Source: Nitrososphaerales archaeon TH5895 (GTDB taxonomy: Archaea > Thermoproteota > Nitrososphaeria > Nitrososphaerales > Nitrososphaeraceae). From it: a stretch of DNA of 10,464 nucleotides. How positions within the stretch are numbered: position 1 is the first letter of the stretch; each line of letters opens with the position of its first letter. Under the pieces are notes generated by a model. That model saw only the letters and a program-made list of their open reading frames with translations, was not told where the DNA came from and ran no database searches. Below, piece after piece: positions 1-10,464 of this stretch. The stretch is from assembly GCA_014523695.1 (NCBI GenBank), contig JAATVS010000482.1:1-10464 (forward strand). Reading direction: 5' to 3'. Position numbers and translations under genes: made by a program.

Positions 1-362
1 CTATAGCCACGCCAGCTCATGACGGTTTTCTCCCTATTTATGTCATTAGTGATAGCAAAATCTAGATCAGATGTTATAAGATGAGTATCAGAACCAGTAT
101 CCATATCTGCCCTTCGATTTAGATACCACGAAGGCATTTTTATTTTTGATGGATTTTTCACCGCGTCCTCAATCTCTTGTATTTCACTATCGGCAAGATA
201 CCCTACTCTTATCGACGGACTAATGTTAAGCGATTGTAATAATACTTGCGAGTAATTATATCCCAGTCCTCTAATACTACTAAGCGCAACAATTGATTTT
301 TTGCTGCCATCTATGTCCTTTCCCGCAATTCTAAGTATATATTTATATTCGCTACTTGACAC
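1..362 (-). CDS. rps13: Small ribosomal subunit protein uS13 (S13p/S18e), C-terminus cut off by window edge
   Basis: Reading the minus strand from a GTG at 360-362 gives about 120 residues that begin MSSSEYKYILRIAGKDIDG and run to SWRGYR at the window edge. Archaeal uS13 landmarks are present: the RIAGKD..G..K opening, the IRGLGYNYS helix-turn segment, GYL.D.EI..IE, then NPSK...PSW..NRR.D..TG and finally the conserved SWRGYR just before the basic tail. The protein sits in the head of the small subunit and contacts 16S rRNA and the P-site tRNA. Family members are roughly 150 residues, so about 30 basic C-terminal residues are missing. A TAG lies in frame ten codons upstream of the GTG and there is no ATG between them, so GTG is the best start. 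In many archaea this gene heads a uS13-uS4-uS11-rpoD operon, which would lie to the left. Identity is secure; the start is likely. Confidence 0.93.
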   Translation of the reverse strand, partial: MSSSEYKYILRIAGKDIDGSKKSIVALSSIRGLGYNYSQVLLQSLNISPSIRVGYLADSEIQEIEDAVKNPSKIKMPSWYLNRRADMDTGSDTHLITSDLDFAITNDINREKTVMSWRGY

Positions 363-1001: not shown

Positions 1002-1033
1002 CAACCCAATTGTATCTGATTTCGCGGATCGAA

Positions 1034-2704
1034 ATGGACCCCCACGAGAAAACAAGAAAACTTGTCCATCGTTCATACACTTCAGAGCCTAATTACAATG
1101 AGATCATGTCTGGATTACCCGATAACTTTAAGCAGTTAACCAAGTTGAAAGATCTGTTAGATATCAATTACAAATATGTTTCTGTTCAAGACCAAATAAG
1201 GCAAAATCTTGTTGCAAGGTTAAGGAGTGGCACTACACCTTTTCCAGGGATAATTGGTTACGAATTAGACGTTCTCCCGGCATTGATTCGTGGTATATTA
1301 GCCGGACACGACATCCTGCTCATTGGGGAAATTGGCCAGGCTAAGACCCGAATCGCAGAAAGTGTTGCAAAACACCTACTTTCTCCTATCCCAGTTGTTG
1401 AAGGCTCGCTAATGCACGATATTCCAACAAGTATCCCAGAACAGAGTCTTGCAGCAATGCTATCCGATGAAGAGATCCAAAGAACGAGTCCTGATTTCAC
1501 TTTCTCAACTGAATGCGAGAATTCAATTAGAAATAACAAGTTAGATACGCGCATAAAATGGGTGGAGGGACTTGATCGCTATCGATATTTTCTAGCCACT
1601 CCTGATGTCTCTGTTAAAGATTTAGTTGGTCAAATAGATGCGATGAAGATCGCGAAGAAAGGTATTGAAATTTACGACATCGAATCCTATACCCCAGGTT
1701 ATCTTCTTCAAGCAAACCACGGAATGTTGTGTATAGATGAACTACCAGTACTCGATCCCAGAAAACAGGTAGCGCTACTTAGCGTACTGCAGGAAGGAAA
1801 ATTCACTACAGGATCGTACCCGATTACGTTTAGACCTGACGTTAGCATTTTTGCAACAGCTAACCCGACTGATTATACCCATTCTGGAAGAATTATTGAA
1901 CCTCTTTCCGATCGTCTAAGAAGCCATATTAAAACACATTATCCGGTTAGGTTGGAAGACGAGATCATGATTATATCACAGGAGACTAGGGGATTAAATT
2001 CGTCACAGGCTTTTGTACCAATTTTTATTCTCAGAACAGTAGCTTCAATAGTGCAACTGGCGAGATCTAGAGATGAGATAAATCAAGAGAAAGGGGTAAG
2101 CGTTAGGATGGGCGTCCACTCGACGGAGTTACTCATAAGTGAATCGGAAAGATGCAGATCAATTTTCAATGCGGTGACTAGTGTTCCTAGGTTTTGTGAT
2201 TTTGACAGTATATTTCAAGCCGTGAAGTTTGAACTTTCCGAAATAGATGACAACTTTGAATCGAGATCGAAGCTGTTAAGGAAGCTTATCGATGAGGCAC
2301 TGAAAAAGGTTTCAATGGCGTATTTGGATTCCATCGATTTAAATGAACTTCAACTCGTGCGTAAGGATTTTTCGGAAAACAACAGATTTCTCGTGTCACA
2401 AAAAATGTTAGGTGTTGATCCCTCTTCAGCACTTGACTATCAAGTTCAACTTAGAAAGGTACCACATCTAGATCAAATAGTTGTCAAGATAATCGATCGG
2501 ATACTAAAGGAACAGCAAGAAATCGTAGAAGAGCTAAGTAGACATGACATAATCGTCCATTTCATTTCGATTCCCCCTAAATTGGATGGAGAACTCATGG
2601 CCTCGGTTATTGAACTAGTACTAGAAGGATTAACATGGATTGAACCGGCTGTACTCGAAAAGAAGAGCCAGGGTGAGTATGGATTACAGGATTCAAATGA
2701 ATAA
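1034..2704 (+). CDS. AAA+ ATPase of the ChlI/BchI-related MoxR type (COG1239-like)
   Basis: This 556-residue protein is an AAA+ ATPase related to the magnesium-chelatase I subunit. Visible motifs, numbered from the ATG at 1034: Walker A GEIGQAKT at 98-105 (the last P-loop Gly is Ala), Walker B MLCIDE at 231-236, sensor-1 Asn in TANP at 275-278, a likely arginine finger in LSDRL at 291-295, and a sensor-2-like Arg in GVSVRMG at 354-360. An insert of about 85 residues separates Walker A from LATPDVSVKDLVG (187-199). The C-terminal 190 residues are mostly helical with no domain I can name. It resembles the ATPase I remember beside COG4867 VWA proteins, such as mycobacterial Rv0958, and here too the next gene is COG4867-like. 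ChlI-type ATPases form hexameric rings that drive a VWA partner during metal insertion; the client is unknown, so a magnesium-chelatase label would overstate it. A longer reading frame opens at TTG 1010, but the TATA position favours 1034. It overlaps the next gene by about 26 bases. Confidence 0.85.
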   Translation: MDPHEKTRKLVHRSYTSEPNYNEIMSGLPDNFKQLTKLKDLLDINYKYVSVQDQIRQNLVARLRSGTTPFPGIIGYELDVLPALIRGILAGHDILLIGEIGQAKTRIAESVAKHLLSPIPVVEGSLMHDIPTSIPEQSLAAMLSDEEIQRTSPDFTFSTECENSIRNNKLDTRIKWVEGLDRYRYFLATPDVSVKDLVGQIDAMKIAKKGIEIYDIESYTPGYLLQANHGMLCIDELPVLDPRKQVALLSVLQEGKFTTGSYPITFRPDVSIFATANPTDYTHSGRIIEPLSDRLRSHIKTHYPVRLEDEIMIISQETRGLNSSQAFVPIFILRTVASIVQLARSRDEINQEKGVSVRMGVHSTELLISESERCRSIFNAVTSVPRFCDFDSIFQAVKFELSEIDDNFESRSKLLRKLIDEALKKVSMAYLDSIDLNELQLVRKDFSENNRFLVSQKMLGVDPSSALDYQVQLRKVPHLDQIVVKIIDRILKEQQEIVEELSRHDIIVHFISIPPKLDGELMASVIELVLEGLTWIEPAVLEKKSQGEYGLQDSNE

Positions 2705-4073
2705 TTCTGAAAAAAGTTACCTTTTTCAGCTCGCCTATTCTATAGATGAATCTAGAAAATCCAAATTTGCCAAAAATTTTGGAAGTTCGCCTAAACCAGG
2801 TATCGACCTCTTGTTGAGTATTGTTGGAAGAGAAGCACTACGGGAAAATAGACCCAACCTTCAAGAATTAGATCGAATAATAAAGAATCTATTAGAGCAA
2901 GACAGTATCGGCGAGGATTCCACACACAGGCAAGATACAAGTAACAATAGCAGAGAGGAAGAGAATGCCCGCGCTCTGAGTCTCCCTTCTCCAATCCTTC
3001 AAATGCTTCTTCATGAAGGCTATTTAAAAAATGATGAGAAATGGCTTACTTCTAGAGGATTTTCTAGGATTGGCAATATGATACTCGATGACGTAATGAG
3101 GGCACTGAAGCTCGGAGAAGCAGGTGGGCATTCCACAAAAACACTAGGCGCAGGATCTGTCTTACTAGATACCACTCGTAAATATGAAGATGGGAACGAT
3201 GTACGGCTGGTCAATATACCATTATCGCTACTTAATTCCGTTCTCAGAGTACAAAAGGAGTTTGGCAGAATTGAGATTCCAGTGCAAATGAAAACGGAAG
3301 ATTTGGAAGAATATGAAACCTTGCAAGATGTTCGAGCCAGCGTAGTATATTGCATCGACTTGAGCTCGACTATGAAATACTCTAGAATGTTTGGGGATTT
3401 GAGTCGAATTGAAGCAGCAAAGAAGGCTCTGTGGAGCCTGGTGATGCTTAACAAAAAATTCTATCCAAATGATTCTGTTTATATCGTTGGCTTCGGCTCG
3501 CTCGCGTCCCGTGTGAAAATTTCCGATATACCATATCTAAAGACTTTTGATGCCGGCTCGGATTTCTTGCATTACACCAACTATCAAGCAGCATTTAGGC
3601 TATCAAAGAGAATATTGCTTAATGACGGTTCAGCAAACAAGCGGATTATTCTCGTGACAGATGGTCATCCCAGCGCTTGCTTTATGGATGACGTGAAGCA
3701 ACAAGAAAAAATCTTGAAAATCAGGCCATACTCGCATTTTTACAAACCTGATGCTTTGAGCGTGGATAGCGTTCGGGCCGAATATGATTTGAGACTCAAT
3801 GTTTCAGCTGGAAATCTAGTCTACCTCTGTTATCGCTACAGGCAGGTCGATAGCTACATTGCTGAGCAGACTATTATTGAGGCAGAGAAGTGCCTCAAGA
3901 AAGGGATATACATCGACACTCTAATGATTAGTGAAGAAGATTCGTTACTAGGTTTTGTTAACGAAATGGAAAGGAGAGTGAAGGGAAGATCTTATTATGT
4001 GAGTCCTGAGGCTTTGGAGACGGCCCTACTTAGTGACTTCATAAGGAACAAGCGTGCAATCCTGCGTGCCTAA
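2679..4073 (+). CDS. VWA-domain protein, COG4867-like partner of the upstream ATPase
   Basis: About 464 residues. The N-terminal half carries family-like segments LLHEGYLKNDEKWLTSRG (110-127) and, after GGHSTKTLGAG (149-159), a stretch ending PLSLLNSVLR. A von Willebrand factor A domain follows from about 220 to the end. The metal-ion-dependent adhesion site is complete with one conservative change: D227-L-S229-S-T231 instead of DxSxS, T300 in HYTNYQAA, and D328 in VTDGHPS. The end, LSDFIRNKRAILRA, matches the usual COG4867 tail as I remember it. Between VTDG and GIYIDTLMI lies a Tyr- and charge-rich segment (about 333-405) that seems longer than in the actinobacterial proteins I recall. The likely role is as VWA adaptor for the ATPase encoded by the overlapping gene upstream, as ChlD serves ChlI. 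The start is uncertain: ATG 2679, GTG 2673 or ATG 2697 are possible, and GGTGA at 2672-2676 lies too close to 2679 to decide. Confidence 0.85.
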   Translation: MDYRIQMNNSEKSYLFQLAYSIDESRKSKFAKNFGSSPKPGIDLLLSIVGREALRENRPNLQELDRIIKNLLEQDSIGEDSTHRQDTSNNSREEENARALSLPSPILQMLLHEGYLKNDEKWLTSRGFSRIGNMILDDVMRALKLGEAGGHSTKTLGAGSVLLDTTRKYEDGNDVRLVNIPLSLLNSVLRVQKEFGRIEIPVQMKTEDLEEYETLQDVRASVVYCIDLSSTMKYSRMFGDLSRIEAAKKALWSLVMLNKKFYPNDSVYIVGFGSLASRVKISDIPYLKTFDAGSDFLHYTNYQAAFRLSKRILLNDGSANKRIILVTDGHPSACFMDDVKQQEKILKIRPYSHFYKPDALSVDSVRAEYDLRLNVSAGNLVYLCYRYRQVDSYIAEQTIIEAEKCLKKGIYIDTLMISEEDSLLGFVNEMERRVKGRSYYVSPEALETALLSDFIRNKRAILRA

Positions 4074-4086
4074 CTTTGCAAGTTGC

Positions 4087-4101
4087 TATATACCTTTTTA
4101 A
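4087..4101 (+). promoter_or_regulatory. Possible internal promoter before the second ATPase/VWA pair
   Basis: The 59-base gap between the first and second gene pair contains TATATA (4087-4092) and TTTTTAA (4095-4101). Either would place a start of transcription 8-17 bases ahead of the TTG at 4133. The second pair may therefore be transcribed on its own as well as by read-through from the first. Confidence 0.4.
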
Positions 4102-4132
4102 GTCCACAAATCCGAATCTAAGTTATTAGTGT

Positions 4133-4948
4133 TTGTCATTGACCCTACCATCGTCACCCCAGTATTTAGATTGGAATGGCGCATTGCCAGTTCTAAGAAA
4201 AGCCTATGATATTGGACTATTTGCCATGATTATTGGACCAAAAGGAACCGGCAAGACGACATTAGTGAAAGCATTTGGCGCCGAGATTGGGAGAACATTA
4301 TATCCCGTTAATTTTAGCCTTAGAACTAGAGAGTCCCATCTCGTAGGAACTAAGACTCTTGAAAATGGAGAGGTGGGATTTGTAGACGGAATTTTGGTGG
4401 AATCCATGAAGCTTGGAGGATTGCTGTACCTCGACGAGCTGAACGCTGCTGAGGCAGACGTGCTTTTGCGACTGGATGAGGCCCTAGATGATAGAAGACA
4501 AGTCGTGTTAAAGGAATCCGAAGGTCAAACAATCACTGCATCCAAAGGGTGGACCGTTATCGCCACAATCAACCCGTTATCCCACGTAGGAACCAAGGAA
4601 CTTCCCCCGCAATTACTCAGCAGATTTCCTGTTCGTCTCAGGTTGGAATACCCTCCAGAAGAAATAGAACTAGATATAATAAGAAGGCATACTTCGATAG
4701 GGGACTCTGCGTTGGCATCCGTGAGCACCGGTGTCAAACTTGCCAACAAGCTTCGTGAGGCTGCCGCTGTTGAGGAGCTTTACTATAGCCCTAGTATGAG
4801 GGAGACTATTGCCTTCTCCAAACTTATAGAATCGGGAAGTGAAGCGAAGTATGCAGCACAATTAGTCTTTGCAAATGTCTACGGTCAATGGGGCGATGTC
4901 GAGTATCAAAAGGTAATGGATATGATTACCTCTATGTTTGGAAACTAG
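4133..4948 (+). CDS. MoxR-type AAA+ ATPase, CobS/NorQ/CbbQ-like
   Basis: A compact AAA_5 ATPase of 271 residues, the usual size for CbbQ/NorQ-type proteins. It shows Walker A GPKGTGKT at 35-42, Walker B LLYLDE at 97-102 followed by LNAA, sensor-1 N147 in TINP, a likely arginine finger R164 in LLSRF, and a sensor-2 Arg in SPSMRE (219-224). The segment FSLRTRESHLVGTKTL after Walker A is the region that in CobS/NorQ proteins holds the substrate-facing loop. Relatives assemble as hexameric rings and work with a VWA protein to remodel metalloenzymes (NorQ/NorD, CbbQ/CbbO) or drive cobalt insertion (CobS/CobT). The next gene is such a VWA protein and follows within about 8-17 bases, so the two are almost surely a functional pair. 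No ATG lies near the front: a TAG at 4127 is in frame just upstream, leaving TTG 4133 or TTG 4139 as start. Exact subfamily is not certain. Confidence 0.88.
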   Translation: MSLTLPSSPQYLDWNGALPVLRKAYDIGLFAMIIGPKGTGKTTLVKAFGAEIGRTLYPVNFSLRTRESHLVGTKTLENGEVGFVDGILVESMKLGGLLYLDELNAAEADVLLRLDEALDDRRQVVLKESEGQTITASKGWTVIATINPLSHVGTKELPPQLLSRFPVRLRLEYPPEEIELDIIRRHTSIGDSALASVSTGVKLANKLREAAAVEELYYSPSMRETIAFSKLIESGSEAKYAAQLVFANVYGQWGDVEYQKVMDMITSMFGN

Positions 4949-4956
4949 ATAGGTTT

Positions 4957-6588
4957 TTGATTAGTGTGTCCGAATACAAGTACAATAAATTTAACTTGAC
5001 CCATAGCTCTACTTTAGAGGGTTTAACCGTCAGGGACGATGTTCTAGTAGAAATAGCTACATTTCTGTCACGCAGATGGTCTGACAAACCCAAAGCGCTT
5101 GTAACGTTCACCGAGGAAGCAAATCCAAAGACGAGTCCTGATAAAAACCAGATTGTACTACCTCACCTTCGTGGGTATGCTGGAAATCGATTTCAAAAGT
5201 ATCGCCAGTGGCGTGTGTCTTTGTGGTACGAGTCTATGAGACTAAAATACTCAACTAGAGTACTTAGTTACGATCATGCATTCGGGTTCGTGCTCAATGC
5301 ACTCGAAAAGAAGCGTATTGAATCGATAGGCCTTGATGAATGGAAGGGGATGATGGATGAAATCATCTTTGACGAAGGAATATCCTGGCTAAATCGACCT
5401 CTCCTAAACTCGTTGTACGGTGTCCAAAAGCTACTCGAGGGCTTCGGCCAGATGTTTTTGACTGGGTACATAAAAGGAGAGCTTTTCTCGTCCGAACACG
5501 ATAAAGTGTCCAAAGCGGTCGAATTGGCTACGTCGGTAGTGCAGGAAGCCCTTGCCTCTCAGTATCAAACAAAGTGGATAGAAGAACAGGTCCCCCGAAT
5601 AATAAAGATCTTGCAGGTCGATCCCTTGGTCTTGATCCCTTTTTCAACCATACGTTCGAGGTTTGGAATTTCTATGAGTGAATCGGAATTATCTCGACAG
5701 ATTGAAAAAATAATCAGGAGAAGGCGAACTGCAGAGAAGAATATTGAAAAGAGCGTCAACGTGATAGTCGAAGGCACAGATATACTTTCTGAGTACGAAA
5801 CCCTAGTCCGAGAGAGCAAGAGACATGAGAATGAAGGGTACGAGAATTTGGAAAATATGGGAATCAGCATCCCACATCGGCTGGATGTTAACGAGAGCGA
5901 AGTTTACGACACTAACCTAATCCACAAGACAAAGGCAAAATTCAAGGAGTGGCGTACGGGCTGGATTGAAAGACATGATCGATCCGGAGACGAGTTCGAT
6001 TCAGAAGCATTCGTCGAATTTATACCCACACCATTCATTGTTGATTTGAAGCTTACTATTAAGACTAGAGTAATGATACTTCTCGACCATTCCAGTAGTA
6101 TACAGGAAGTCGAACTGAAATACAAACAGGTAACTAACGCTCTTTGCGAAGCCCTTTCCTTCTTAGGCGTAAGATTCGCTGTTTATGCCTTTAGTACTGA
6201 TGGCAAACAAGTGAAATGTTGGTTAATAAAACCGCCAAACTACAGGTGGTCTTCAATTTGCACAAAGAGGCTGGCGCAGATAAGGGCAAGTGGGGGGACG
6301 CCACTTGCGGAGATCTATGGTTTGCTCGAACCAATGGTAAGGTCATTCAAACCTGAAATCTTTTTCACCCTAACAGATGGTGAACCTTCTGACACTGATG
6401 CAGTACGTCATATGGTATTGTCTTTTCGGAAAATTGGCAGTCACATGGTCGCTCTTGGTTTGGGAAGAAATATAGATGAAGCTATATCAATCGGTCAAAA
6501 TCTGAGATATCTGGATTATGAAAGGAGCCTGGCCGTGAGTAAATTAGAAGATATTCCAAGAAAAGTAATTGGATTACTGAGAAGCTGA
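4957..6588 (+). CDS. CobT-like VWA-domain protein, partner of the CobS/NorQ-like ATPase
   Basis: About 543 residues with the VWA domain at the C-terminus (about 368-543), the arrangement seen in CobT and NorD. The metal-ion-dependent adhesion site is fully canonical: D377-H-S379-S-S381, T448 in GGTPLAE and D474 in LTDGEPSD. The N-terminal half is helical; ALEKKRIESIGLDEWKGM (115-132) resembles the VEQARVEAIG segment of cobaltochelatase CobT as I remember it, supporting a CobT-like reading. The middle (about 245-345) is strongly charged, including RRRR at 254-257, which fits a flexible linker between the helical half and the VWA domain. It probably couples ATP hydrolysis by the upstream ATPase to a client enzyme. 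No CobN or other large chelatase subunit lies nearby, so cobalt insertion is only one option. An ATG at 4888 would overlap the ATPase gene by 61 bases; TTG 4957 (after AGGT at 4951-4954) or GTG 4966 is more likely. Confidence 0.82.
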   Translation: MISVSEYKYNKFNLTHSSTLEGLTVRDDVLVEIATFLSRRWSDKPKALVTFTEEANPKTSPDKNQIVLPHLRGYAGNRFQKYRQWRVSLWYESMRLKYSTRVLSYDHAFGFVLNALEKKRIESIGLDEWKGMMDEIIFDEGISWLNRPLLNSLYGVQKLLEGFGQMFLTGYIKGELFSSEHDKVSKAVELATSVVQEALASQYQTKWIEEQVPRIIKILQVDPLVLIPFSTIRSRFGISMSESELSRQIEKIIRRRRTAEKNIEKSVNVIVEGTDILSEYETLVRESKRHENEGYENLENMGISIPHRLDVNESEVYDTNLIHKTKAKFKEWRTGWIERHDRSGDEFDSEAFVEFIPTPFIVDLKLTIKTRVMILLDHSSSIQEVELKYKQVTNALCEALSFLGVRFAVYAFSTDGKQVKCWLIKPPNYRWSSICTKRLAQIRASGGTPLAEIYGLLEPMVRSFKPEIFFTLTDGEPSDTDAVRHMVLSFRKIGSHMVALGLGRNIDEAISIGQNLRYLDYERSLAVSKLEDIPRKVIGLLRS

Positions 6589-6647: not shown

Positions 6648-7313
6648 TTATTTTCTCAACTTTGGAGATTCGTTCCCAATCCTTTCCCAATCAGAAAGAA
6701 ATGCATCCAGCCCCTTGTCTGTAAGCGGATGTCTCATCATCTTGCCAAGGATATCAGGTGGAAGGGTTACGACATCAGCCCCAATTTCAGCAGCCTGGAC
6801 TACATGGTCCGGATGACGTATGCTAGCCACCAAAACCTGGGTCTTAAACTGATAGTTGCTGAAAATGTTTACTATACTTTTCACAATTGACATTCCGTTG
6901 TGTCCGATATCGTCAAGTCTGCCAATGAACGGACTCACATACGTGGCTCCTGCTTTAGCAGCTAACAATGCTTGATTAGCTGAAAACACTAGAGTGACAT
7001 TCGTAGAGATTCCTTCGCTGGAAAGTATCGTCAAGGCCTTCAAACCTTCAGGGATCATTGGAATTTTTACTACAACGTTCTGCCCATATTTTTTCAGGTG
7101 GTGAGCCTCTTCAATCATTTGTGCTGATTCTGTTCCTATCACCTCGAGGCTTACATCGCCTCTCACCATACCCACGATTGCCCTCATTATCTCTTCGGGT
7201 GAACCCTGTTCCTTTGATAGAAGCGTTGGATTTGTAGTAATCCCATCCAAAACACCCATATCATTGTACTTTTTTATGGATTCTAAATTGGCAGTGTCTA
7301 AAAAAATCTTCAT
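6648..7313 (-). CDS. tal: Transaldolase, small TalC/FSA-size type
   Basis: A 221-residue TIM-barrel aldolase that moves a dihydroxyacetone unit between sugar phosphates (sedoheptulose-7-P plus glyceraldehyde-3-P to erythrose-4-P plus fructose-6-P). Visible signatures: D6 in FLDTANL, TTNPTLL (26-32), the Schiff-base lysine K83 in VVVKIPM, and S164 in ASIRHP. The short form is shared with fructose-6-phosphate aldolase, but three positions separate the activities. Here they are E57 (SLEV), N105 (STNVTL) and F129 (SPFIGR), the transaldolase set; E. coli FSA has Gln, Thr and Tyr there. I therefore call it transaldolase rather than FSA. It is the last gene of the pentose phosphate operon, seven bases after the transketolase C-terminal subunit gene, and ends close to the convergent VWA gene (59-base gap). 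The length matches the family and the ATG start is clear. Confidence 0.93.
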   Translation of the reverse strand: MKIFLDTANLESIKKYNDMGVLDGITTNPTLLSKEQGSPEEIMRAIVGMVRGDVSLEVIGTESAQMIEEAHHLKKYGQNVVVKIPMIPEGLKALTILSSEGISTNVTLVFSANQALLAAKAGATYVSPFIGRLDDIGHNGMSIVKSIVNIFSNYQFKTQVLVASIRHPDHVVQAAEIGADVVTLPPDILGKMMRHPLTDKGLDAFLSDWERIGNESPKLRK

Positions 7314-7320
7314 CTACTCT

Positions 7321-8295
7321 TCATTTCCTCTTTTCCGCCGCTTTAGCGACCCGTTTTGCCACTTTTGCAGGACTCAATCCATAGACGTCCAGGAGCAATT
7401 CTAATTCTTCGTCTCTTGCTGATTCACCGAAAACATCCGAAACGCCAATCCTTTCAACTGGTACGGGATAATGAGCAGAAGCAGATTCAGCTACTGCACC
7501 TCCAAGACCTCCAAAGATATTATGTTCCTCTACGGAGACTAACAAACCAGTGTCTCTGGCGGCCTTCTCAAGCAATTCATCATCAATAGGTTTTACATTA
7601 AACATATCAATTACCCGACAGTTCAATGCGTACTTCTCTCTTAAAATTTCTGCTGCTTTTAACGAAGTGGAGACCATCAAACCACATCCAACCAAGGTTG
7701 CATCGGCACCTTCACGGAGAAGATTTCCCTTGCCTAGACCGAATTCAGTCGGGGTGGTGTCATCGTACAAGACCTCACTTGGAGGGCGTGCAAGTCTCAC
7801 ATAGACAGGTCCTCTGATATGGACAGATGTATGGACAATCTTTTTGGCTGAAATGGCATCAGAAGGTACCATGACCTTCATATTTGGAATTGCTCGCATC
7901 GTTGCAAGATCTTCTATTTGTTGATGAGATGCACCGTCTGGACCGACGGTCAATCCAGCGTGAGAGACAACAAGTTTCACATCCAGGTTAGGAAAGCATA
8001 TTGCATTCCGAATTTGGTCGAGGCATCTACCCGGAAGGAATGCCGCGTATGTGCTTGCAAAGGCGATCTTCCCTGCCATGGCTAGGCCAGCGGCTACAGA
8101 GACTAGATTCGCTTCTGCTATTCCCAAGTTAAAAAATCGTTCAGGAAATTTATTCCCAAAGTTCTTTGTCTTAAGCGAATCAGTGGTATCCGCCCCAACA
8201 CAAACTATCTCGGGATATTTTAGCCCAGCCTCAACGAGACTATCCCCGTACGCACTCCTCATGTCAAGCCTTGTCTGTTCTCTACTTAAGAGCAT
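7321..8295 (-). CDS. Transketolase, C-terminal subunit
   Basis: 324 residues covering the pyrimidine-binding and C-terminal domains of transketolase, a separate subunit in many archaea. Key residues: E61 in LGIAEANL, the glutamate that activates the aminopyrimidine ring of thiamine diphosphate; FASTYAAFL (79-87) around the cofactor; GPDGASHQ (118-125) with the substrate-contacting His124; and RLARPPSE (167-174). The C-terminal domain runs from about 190 with VGCGLMV and SVEEHNIFGGLGGAVAE. Together with the N-terminal subunit encoded just upstream it would form the complete enzyme, with the active site at the interface between the two polypeptides. Its start overlaps the fusion gene by 14 bases, pointing to coupled translation and balanced production. 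ATG 8295 has GAGG nine bases ahead; ATG 8262, at MRSAYGDS, is a second possibility. Nothing essential seems lost. Confidence 0.94.
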   Translation of the reverse strand: MLLSREQTRLDMRSAYGDSLVEAGLKYPEIVCVGADTTDSLKTKNFGNKFPERFFNLGIAEANLVSVAAGLAMAGKIAFASTYAAFLPGRCLDQIRNAICFPNLDVKLVVSHAGLTVGPDGASHQQIEDLATMRAIPNMKVMVPSDAISAKKIVHTSVHIRGPVYVRLARPPSEVLYDDTTPTEFGLGKGNLLREGADATLVGCGLMVSTSLKAAEILREKYALNCRVIDMFNVKPIDDELLEKAARDTGLLVSVEEHNIFGGLGGAVAESASAHYPVPVERIGVSDVFGESARDEELELLLDVYGLSPAKVAKRVAKAAEKRK

Positions 8296-9922
8296 GAATC
8301 TCTTCCTCTATGTCCAATTCGTTTGCAAATGGAATCAATATATGTTTACGTGTCTTAAGCCAATCATTTCGTATACCAATGCTAGTCGATAAATCGAGAA
8401 GCTTTTTTTCTAAAACTACATTTGCTGTATGCTTCAATTGCAGTATTGCCCCTTGAATGTCTGGAGTCCCGTAGACCGCATTGCCTGTAACAAGAATTCT
8501 AGCTCCAGCCTCATAAACCTGGGGGAGGGTTATCGAATCTATTCCACCATCTGCTTCAATATAGCCTTTGTACCCATTTCCTCTGAGCTCCTCCACTGCA
8601 CTGATCATCTTTGGAAGCACCTTCGGTATAAATTTCTGTCCGGGGAATCCAGGATTCACTGACAATATGTTTACGACGTCTATCGAATTCAGGTAATCCC
8701 ATATCCAATCAGGTAGTGCTGTGTCCGGATTAATTGCGATCCCTGGACTAATCCCGTTTGAAATAAGCTTCCTATTGATTTCTGCAAATTCGGATTGCGA
8801 ACACGCCTCGGCGTGGACAGTGATAATATCGCACCGGGCTGATATATATTCATCGACCACAGCTGCGGGATTTTCTATCATCAGATGTGTATCAAATGGC
8901 ATCGAAGTAATTTTTCTCAATCTATGGATAGTGTCTGCCAGAAAAGTATGATTAGGAACGAATCGTCCATCCATGACATCTAAATGGATCATGTCTGCTC
9001 CGCCCCTCTCGGCCATTCTTATCTTCTCCTCGTAATTCTCCTTTCCCCCAGCTATTATGGAAGGAGCAATTAGAAACTCGCAGTCAAGCTCTTCCAGTAG
9101 TATGGGTGTCTGCTTCCTCCCCGGAGCCTTGCCGTGCCACTGCGGATTATTAGTCATATGTTTGATGCCATAGCCTTTGATAGTATTGGCTATAATGATC
9201 GTAGGCTTGTCCTTCACTGCCAACGACTTGTTAACTGCATCTATCACCTGCTCAACCCTGTGTCCATCTATTTCAATCACGTTCCAATTGAAAGCAACCC
9301 ACTTGTCACGGACAGGATCGAGTGGCATTATGTCTTCAGTGAATCCATCTTGCTGAATCCTGTTTCGATCCAGTATTGCAGTCATATTATCCAATCCGAA
9401 TTTGGACGCCGACATTGCGGCTTCCCAAACCTGACCTTCATTTGATTCTCCATCTCCAATCAAAGTAAATATATGATTTGCATTTCCATCCAGACGGTTA
9501 GCCAACGCTAGACCTACAGAAACGGATAGCCCTATCCCTTCTGAACCTCCAGAATACTCGATGCCAGGTACGCTCCATTTGCTTTGCTCTTCAGAATAAC
9601 GTACTGGATGACCCTGTAGCCTAGAACCAAAGCCACGGAGCGATTTGATCTCCTCGGCTGGGAAATAGCCGGATACGGCTAACGTAGCATAAAAACCCGG
9701 AGCGGAATGACCTTTAGAATTTATGAAATAGTCTCTCCCTTTCCAGAAAGGATCTTTTTGATTATGTACTAATTTCCTGAAGTAAAGCGCGCCCATTATT
9801 TCGGCGGCCGAAAACGAGGCCCCAGGATGACCTGAACCAGCTTCGGCGATCCCTTCTATTGCGAGCATCCTGACAGCACGGATCTTTGTCTTGAGGTCTA
9901 AATACCGCATTTTTAGTGTCAT
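8282..9922 (-). CDS. Fusion: transketolase N-terminal subunit + ribulose-phosphate 3-epimerase
   Basis: One uninterrupted frame of about 546 residues encodes two enzymes. Numbered from ATG 9922, residues 1-270 are a transketolase N-terminal (thiamine-diphosphate binding) subunit: SGHPG (30-34), GHSAPG (71-76), QGHP (103-106), GDGESNEG (156-163) with Asn187 completing the GDG...N cofactor motif, and WHGKAPG (262-268). Residues 283-500 are a full ribulose-phosphate 3-epimerase barrel: APSIIAG, the metal ligands H313 and D315 in HLDVMDGRFVPN, H346 in DTHLM and D458 in EADGGI, plus NPGFPGQKF and GNAVYG. No metal ligand is missing. About 45 residues with no recognised domain follow. The epimerase product, xylulose-5-P, is the donor substrate of transketolase, so channelling is plausible. 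The partner C-terminal subunit gene follows with a 14-base overlap. A longer frame opens at TTG 9964; ATG 9922 gives a front end of normal length. Domain identities are secure; the start is likely. Confidence 0.92.
   Translation of the reverse strand: MTLKMRYLDLKTKIRAVRMLAIEGIAEAGSGHPGASFSAAEIMGALYFRKLVHNQKDPFWKGRDYFINSKGHSAPGFYATLAVSGYFPAEEIKSLRGFGSRLQGHPVRYSEEQSKWSVPGIEYSGGSEGIGLSVSVGLALANRLDGNANHIFTLIGDGESNEGQVWEAAMSASKFGLDNMTAILDRNRIQQDGFTEDIMPLDPVRDKWVAFNWNVIEIDGHRVEQVIDAVNKSLAVKDKPTIIIANTIKGYGIKHMTNNPQWHGKAPGRKQTPILLEELDCEFLIAPSIIAGGKENYEEKIRMAERGGADMIHLDVMDGRFVPNHTFLADTIHRLRKITSMPFDTHLMIENPAAVVDEYISARCDIITVHAEACSQSEFAEINRKLISNGISPGIAINPDTALPDWIWDYLNSIDVVNILSVNPGFPGQKFIPKVLPKMISAVEELRGNGYKGYIEADGGIDSITLPQVYEAGARILVTGNAVYGTPDIQGAILQLKHTANVVLEKKLLDLSTSIGIRNDWLKTRKHILIPFANELDIEEEIHALK
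8305..8308 (-). promoter_or_regulatory. Shine-Dalgarno site of the transketolase C-terminal subunit
   Basis: GAGG on the minus strand, nine bases before the ATG at 8295 and inside the 3' end of the fusion gene. It supports the upstream ATG rather than ATG 8262 and shows that internal genes of this operon use Shine-Dalgarno pairing, unlike the likely leaderless first genes in the window. Confidence 0.5.
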
Positions 9923-9983
9923 ATTAAACCCCAATCTCCGAGCAACGCACCAATTCTTGTTCAATAAGATTGCGAAATGATCG

Positions 9984-10113: not shown

Positions 10114-10464
10114 ATGGTTAAACTTGTTGCAGAGCAGATTCCTGCTAGTACTAAGCGAACGCCGCTATTGGTTTTAGGTGTATTCGAGGACGAAGTTGAG
10201 GGTATAAGAAATCAATTGGATGGGATTAACTCAACGACTGTCGAACTGGTGGATCGAGTAATCCAGGAAAAGGAACATACTGGATCATTTGGGAGTATCT
10301 GCATTGTCCATTGCTTCACAGGCCCAATACAGAGAATCATGCTTTTAGGGTTAGGGCAGAGGGCAAGTCTTGACAATGAAAAAGTTAGAGTCCTTGCAGG
10401 AAAGGCCTCAGTGAAAGCAATGGAGATCAACGTTACTGAATATAGCATCAAACCCTTTACCCAA
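10114..10464 (+). CDS. pepA: M17 leucyl aminopeptidase, N-terminal part, cut off by window edge
   Basis: The ATG at 10114 opens 117 codons that stay open to the window edge. The translation fits the N-terminal regulatory/oligomerisation domain of cytosolic M17 aminopeptidases: TPLLVLGVFEDEVEG (16-30), GSFGSICIVHC (61-71), then IQRIMLLGLGQRASLD (76-91) and the helix EKVRVLAGKAS. These are the family's usual v.G.f.d, G..G......, r.ll.GLG....l pattern. The two-zinc catalytic domain with its lysine, aspartates and glutamate would lie to the right and cannot be checked. The enzyme releases N-terminal amino acids from peptides and forms hexamers in known cases. An ATG at 10103 is in a different frame. 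The call rests only on the less conserved N-terminal domain, so it is good but not certain. Confidence 0.8.
   Translation, partial: MVKLVAEQIPASTKRTPLLVLGVFEDEVEGIRNQLDGINSTTVELVDRVIQEKEHTGSFGSICIVHCFTGPIQRIMLLGLGQRASLDNEKVRVLAGKASVKAMEINVTEYSIKPFTQ

Follow-up and report, generated by a model that had tools for sequence, protein, structure and literature searches.

We analysed a stretch of 10,464 nucleotides from Nitrososphaerales archaeon TH5895 (contig JAATVS010000482.1), hereafter the window, and found that one gene on its reverse strand (8282..9922) encodes the N-terminal subunit of transketolase (TktN) joined in frame to a ribulose-phosphate 3-epimerase (Rpe), with a conserved tail at the C-terminus. 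Very probably, the product is a bifunctional enzyme that serves the non-oxidative pentose phosphate pathway, and its gene arose when neighbouring tktN and rpe genes merged in an ancestor shared by the window's family and the Nitrosopumilus-type family. The structure of the gene, the residues kept in both halves, the single matches in the source genome, the gene order in relatives and the single clade formed by the fusions in the trees of both domains carry this explanation.

The open reading frame starts with an ATG at 9922, ends with a stop codon at 8282-8284, contains no internal stop and encodes 546 amino acids; the same long frame is found in relatives. A longer version from a TTG at 9964 was considered unlikely, because most of the aligned relatives begin at the position of the ATG. 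Pfam searches showed that residues 12-273 (9104..9889, reverse strand) form a Transketolase_N domain, which binds thiamine diphosphate (PF00456; E = 5.6e-49, 167.4 bits against a cut-off of 22), and that residues 285-484 (8471..9070, reverse strand) form a Ribul_P_3_epim domain (PF00834; E = 3.7e-53, 180.3 bits against a cut-off of 21.1). The frame and these domains confirm a preliminary description, made from the sequence alone, of an in-frame fusion with a complete epimerase.

To assess conservation, we compared 167 distinct fusion sequences, consisting of fetched loci and the best-scoring database hits and therefore unevenly sampled. The choice of positions followed what we take to be the typical residues of the two families, namely the GDG...N thiamine diphosphate motif and the metal-binding His/Asp set of epimerases. 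The results showed that the transketolase residues H32, H72, H105, H221, H263, GDG 156-158 and N187 were kept in 166 or 167 of the 167 fusions, with G156, D157, G158 and N187 present in all of them, and that the epimerase residues H313, D315, H346 and D458 were likewise invariant. By its domain score, its GDG...N motif and the nearby gene tktC, whose product has a pyrimidine-binding domain, the N-terminal half belongs to the split type of PF00456 transketolases; the other half belongs to PF00834 by its score and its metal-binding set. The closest solved relative of the N-terminal half by sequence is 6yak, a split-chain transketolase titled as an active alpha2beta2 enzyme: its N component matches fusion residues 7-280 (241 bits) and also matches the fusion's N-terminal part in fold (root-mean-square deviation 1.6), and its C component is separately encoded, as it is beside the fusion. 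The N component of 6yak differs in being a chain of 309 residues that is matched solely by the TktN part. The whole barrel aligns with the solved epimerases 1rpx, 2fli and 1tqj, including the metal-binding positions, but those are chains of 220-230 residues that have neither the tail nor a transketolase part. An AlphaFold model of the fusion had a mean predicted local distance difference test score (pLDDT) of 91.4 and a predicted template modelling score of 0.91, and a fold search matched its barrel to solved epimerases. The earlier suggestions that catalytic and cofactor residues are kept in both halves, and that the protein works as a bifunctional enzyme, thus agree with the retained residues, the confident fold, the adjacent tktC and the single genome matches. 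The bifunctional reading is well supported, with both activities predicted from sequence; decay of either domain was not supported, because the catalytic residues are kept.

In the model, a linker of only about three residues separates the last TktN helix (residues 269-280) from the first strand of the barrel (284-289). From the model's secondary structure, the alignment and the junctions of separate genes, we placed the junction at residues 281-284 (9071..9082, reverse strand). Relatives of the same order carry tktN and rpe as separate genes, and 12 such loci were tabulated, two of them from one genome and several of them short. The results showed that rpe follows tktN in all 12, that tktC is next after rpe in 11, and that tal, the gene of a transaldolase family protein, follows tktC in eight. 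Upstream of tktN, 11 of the loci have a gene for a pfkB-family sugar kinase, at L042:1826-2869(+), where Pfam identified PfkB, and in a like place in L002-L007, L019, L043, L045 and L047. At the L045 junction, the TktN frame ends with ...KEELGL and a stop, which overlap an ATG from which the epimerase can be read in a different frame (MSIKIAPSILAG); the corresponding site of the fusion reads ...ILLEELDCEFLIAPSIIAG. Comparison of the two sequences suggests that this stop and restart gave way to one continuous frame, with about three residues added. L004 and L005 differ from L045 in that their genes are gapped at the junction. In both domain trees the fusions formed one clade (Shimodaira-Hasegawa-like approximate likelihood ratio test support of 99 and 97), lying beside or within the separate-gene sequences, which fits a single fusion event. 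On these trees, the fusion appears to have originated once, by the merging of neighbours in a tktN-rpe-tktC-tal order that is still present in related families. Two genomes of the order that have the genes unfused also contain Transketolase_N pieces that are additional or split (G083:C113 and C54; G081:C93 and C191), which may reflect broken contigs or additional gene copies.

Beyond the barrel, the fusions extend by about 45 residues. Eight separate epimerases were included in the alignment and none showed a like stretch; those of L014 and L042 end in short tails peculiar to them. In the window, the conserved part comprises residues 499-546 (8285..8428, reverse strand). Its residues Leu508 and Trp521 were present in all 167 fusions, and much of the remaining tail differs in the Nitrosopumilus-type sequences. 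The model places tail helices at residues 489-515, 518-524, 526-536 and 539-544, with block-mean pLDDT values of 91-97 as far as residue 540 and of 83 beyond. Pfam listed no match to the tail at an E limit of 10, a search in which program filters drop most weak matches, and the sequences of the Protein Data Bank gave no credible match, the best (a polyketide synthase, E = 0.49) being read as chance. The fold-match list consisted mainly of TktN-domain entries and was uninformative on the tail. Our guess is that the tail anchors the barrel to the transketolase core or to the C subunit.

The same two domains were also found joined in the reversed order. Two genomes of another archaeal family (G411 and G417; f18, genus g93) encode reversed Rpe-TktN fusions, at loci L032:3187-4797(-) and L033:3099-4715(-), each followed by tktC and tal. 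With the reversed protein as query, the best 120 database hits listed comprised 70 Rpe-TktN proteins and 50 matched in TktN only; the reversed fusions among the database sequences (P0125-P0168, P0176, P0205-P0211 and P0213-P0222) include some fragments. In a sample of 398 genomes of the window's phylum, the reversed protein was matched in 257, and at full length in at least two (G411, the source of the query, and G417). We guess that f18 is Bathyarchaeota, and likewise the source of a database hit whose name begins with 'Candidatus B'. In the TktN tree, the reversed sequences need five label changes, at least three of which are forced by well-supported branches; this pattern may reflect one gain followed by losses, and P0170, a TktN-only sequence among them, may be a fragment. 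In the Rpe tree they need three changes, at least two of them forced, and long branches make their placement unsure. On both trees the reversed sequences fall apart from the TktN-Rpe clade, indicating that each order arose independently. Unfused genes arranged as rpe-tktN-tktC were tabulated at six Patescibacteria-type loci and one Micrarchaeota locus. In the phylum of a Yonathbacteria genome (379 genomes, with an epimerase match in 269), no frame of 500-550 amino acids was found among the matches listed, which include frames of 706, 431 and 372 amino acids.

These features bear on what the fusion may have brought to the cell. We propose that its N-terminal part and the separately encoded C-terminal subunit would form a split-chain transketolase, that the joined barrel would serve as the cell's ribulose-phosphate 3-epimerase, and that tktN and rpe, as neighbours in a tktN-rpe-tktC-tal group, would have become a single reading frame in the common ancestor of the two families. 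Assembly of a heterotetramer, channelling and a docking role of the tail are parts of the proposal that we infer. The likely gains would be a fixed one-to-one supply of epimerase and transketolase and a short distance between the two sites, across which xylulose-5-phosphate released by one could be taken up by the other. The strongest competing explanation, falling just short of an even call, is that the fusion gives equal dosage and shared expression alone, with the two sites working independently and no channelling. Most organisms manage with transketolase and epimerase as separate proteins, and since the genes are already neighbours in a single order in related families, joining them may bring little more than stoichiometry. 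However, the three-residue linker and the conserved tail suggest a fixed geometry, and the reversed fusions show that the joining happened more than once. A bolder idea, which we regard as rather doubtful, is that epimerase and TktN were welded at least twice in opposite orders, each mirroring the neighbour-gene order of related lineages, and that the near-zero linker and a tail fixing the barrel make up a selected complex for xylulose-5-phosphate transfer.

Several points weigh against this explanation of the gene as a bifunctional enzyme. In the window's family (f1), six of 61 genomes had no strong epimerase match: no match was found in G002, G034, G054 and G056, and only weak matches in G036 and G060, with G034 and G036 showing a TktN domain piece only (a 194-amino-acid frame; contig bases 1-708). 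The alignment behind the model had 57 rows, some of them single-domain proteins. At an E threshold of 0.001, the source genome had one PF00834 and one PF00456 match, both in the fusion gene, but it is a draft (3.88 megabases, 719 contigs, 92% completeness) that could lack a second copy present in the organism. The barrel also scored below the strict epimerase equivalog TIGR01163 (195.0 against a cut-off of 212.6), as would be expected if it were now structural or regulatory and had lost its epimerase function. We consider this loss very unlikely, since the barrel passed the broader epimerase subfamily NF004076 (192.1 over 165), its metal-binding residues are invariant, and no second PF00834 match is present in the genome.

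A profile search for the epimerase in 101 genomes gave a strong match in 76, only a weak match in 12 and none in 13. The strong match lay within a single frame of 468-612 amino acids in 55 of the 61 f1 genomes, among them the same-genus genomes G001, G003 and G004 and several one-contig genomes, and in all four genomes of family f9. The TktN half was verified in the same frame for all four f9 genomes and for 40 of these 55 f1 genomes, 34 of them by matching frames and six by loci; for the remaining 15 f1 genomes, its presence rests on frame length. In the 398-genome phylum sample, frames of 551-605 amino acids were found in the f9 genomes with a listed match (62, counted by hand); a further 116 genomes of the sample, whose names were not given, had no match. 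With the fusion as query, the best 120 database hits listed all had the TktN-Rpe order. By name, the fusion-bearing relatives include Nitrososphaeraceae, Nitrosocosmicus and Nitrosopumilus; the Nitrosopumilus-named sequences share one clade with those of f9, which points to f9 being the Nitrosopumilus family. We take the fusion-bearing families to be related to ammonia oxidisers. In five other families (f2, f3, f8, f10 and f14; 17 genomes), the strong epimerase match lay in a frame of 222-294 amino acids. Thus the architecture recurs in related genomes, and the separate genes with a stop near 9080 that the preliminary description named as a sign of error are confined to more distantly related families of the order. 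Although f2, f3, f8 and f10, of the same order, have the two genes unfused in this arrangement, overlapping in some cases and gapped in others, a sequencing or assembly error that joined them here is so improbable that we discount it, because the repetition across many assemblies excludes chance and artefact.

The fusion had been thought undescribed, and this did not hold. According to its passages on the subject, PMC11237513 (mSystems 2024) reports a fusion of the transketolase N-terminus and Rpe in 73 of 98 Thaumarchaeota assemblies (cluster 341.1). The window's gene, with both parts in one chain in a Thaumarchaeota genome, is of this kind: the same two domains are joined in the same archaeal group. 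The junction, the tail, the origin from neighbouring genes and the reversed fusions do not appear in the paper's passages on the fusion and, as far as these go, are additions to the published account. No other paper on the fusion was found in the literature searched, as judged by title, abstract start and term counts, and no assay of it, as judged mostly by the same; nor did that literature, the supplementary tables of PMC11237513 aside, mention the reversed fusion. The fusion is therefore already published, real, most likely bifunctional, and old within two families.

Downstream of the fusion, tktC (7321..8295, reverse strand) encodes the transketolase C-terminal subunit with Transket_pyr and Transketolase_C domains (PF02779, PF02780). 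Its ATG at 8295 gives the 14-base overlap with the fusion gene noted previously. The next gene (6648..7313, reverse strand) encodes a protein of the transaldolase/fructose-6-phosphate aldolase family (TAL_FSA; TIGR00875, 300.9 bits over 245.95). In all 57 fusion loci tabulated, tktC follows the fusion; many of them have a divergent M17 peptidase gene upstream, and no pfkB gene was seen beside the fusion in any. Two AAA ATPase genes alternating with two VWA-domain genes (1010-6588, forward strand) converge on the transaldolase gene; Pfam assigned them AAA_5, VWA_2, AAA_5 and VWA, the last just below its cut-off, and parts of this set stay adjacent to the operon in many relatives. The contig ends hold a partial ribosomal protein S13 gene (3-362, reverse strand) and a partial gene for an M17 aminopeptidase N-terminal domain (10114-10464, forward strand).

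The oxidative branch of the pathway was searched through one family, glucose-6-phosphate dehydrogenase (PF02781), which was matched in none of 41 genomes and in 9 of 14 control genomes. One RpiA match was found, at a contig edge. With PF02781 unmatched, pentoses probably come from fructose-6-phosphate through transketolase, and from knowledge of the pathway the epimerase would then probably mainly consume xylulose-5-phosphate released by transketolase. The earlier stress on the epimerase making xylulose-5-phosphate for transketolase is therefore doubtful; a flux in this direction would turn the emphasis round and leave the logic of closeness intact.

In these archaea, the transketolase-epimerase-transaldolase gene group could make pentoses and erythrose-4-phosphate. 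The fusion would also offer a good opportunity to ask whether joining genes of a central pathway serves metabolite transfer or only equal dosage, with separate-gene, forward-fused and reverse-fused versions all available for comparison.
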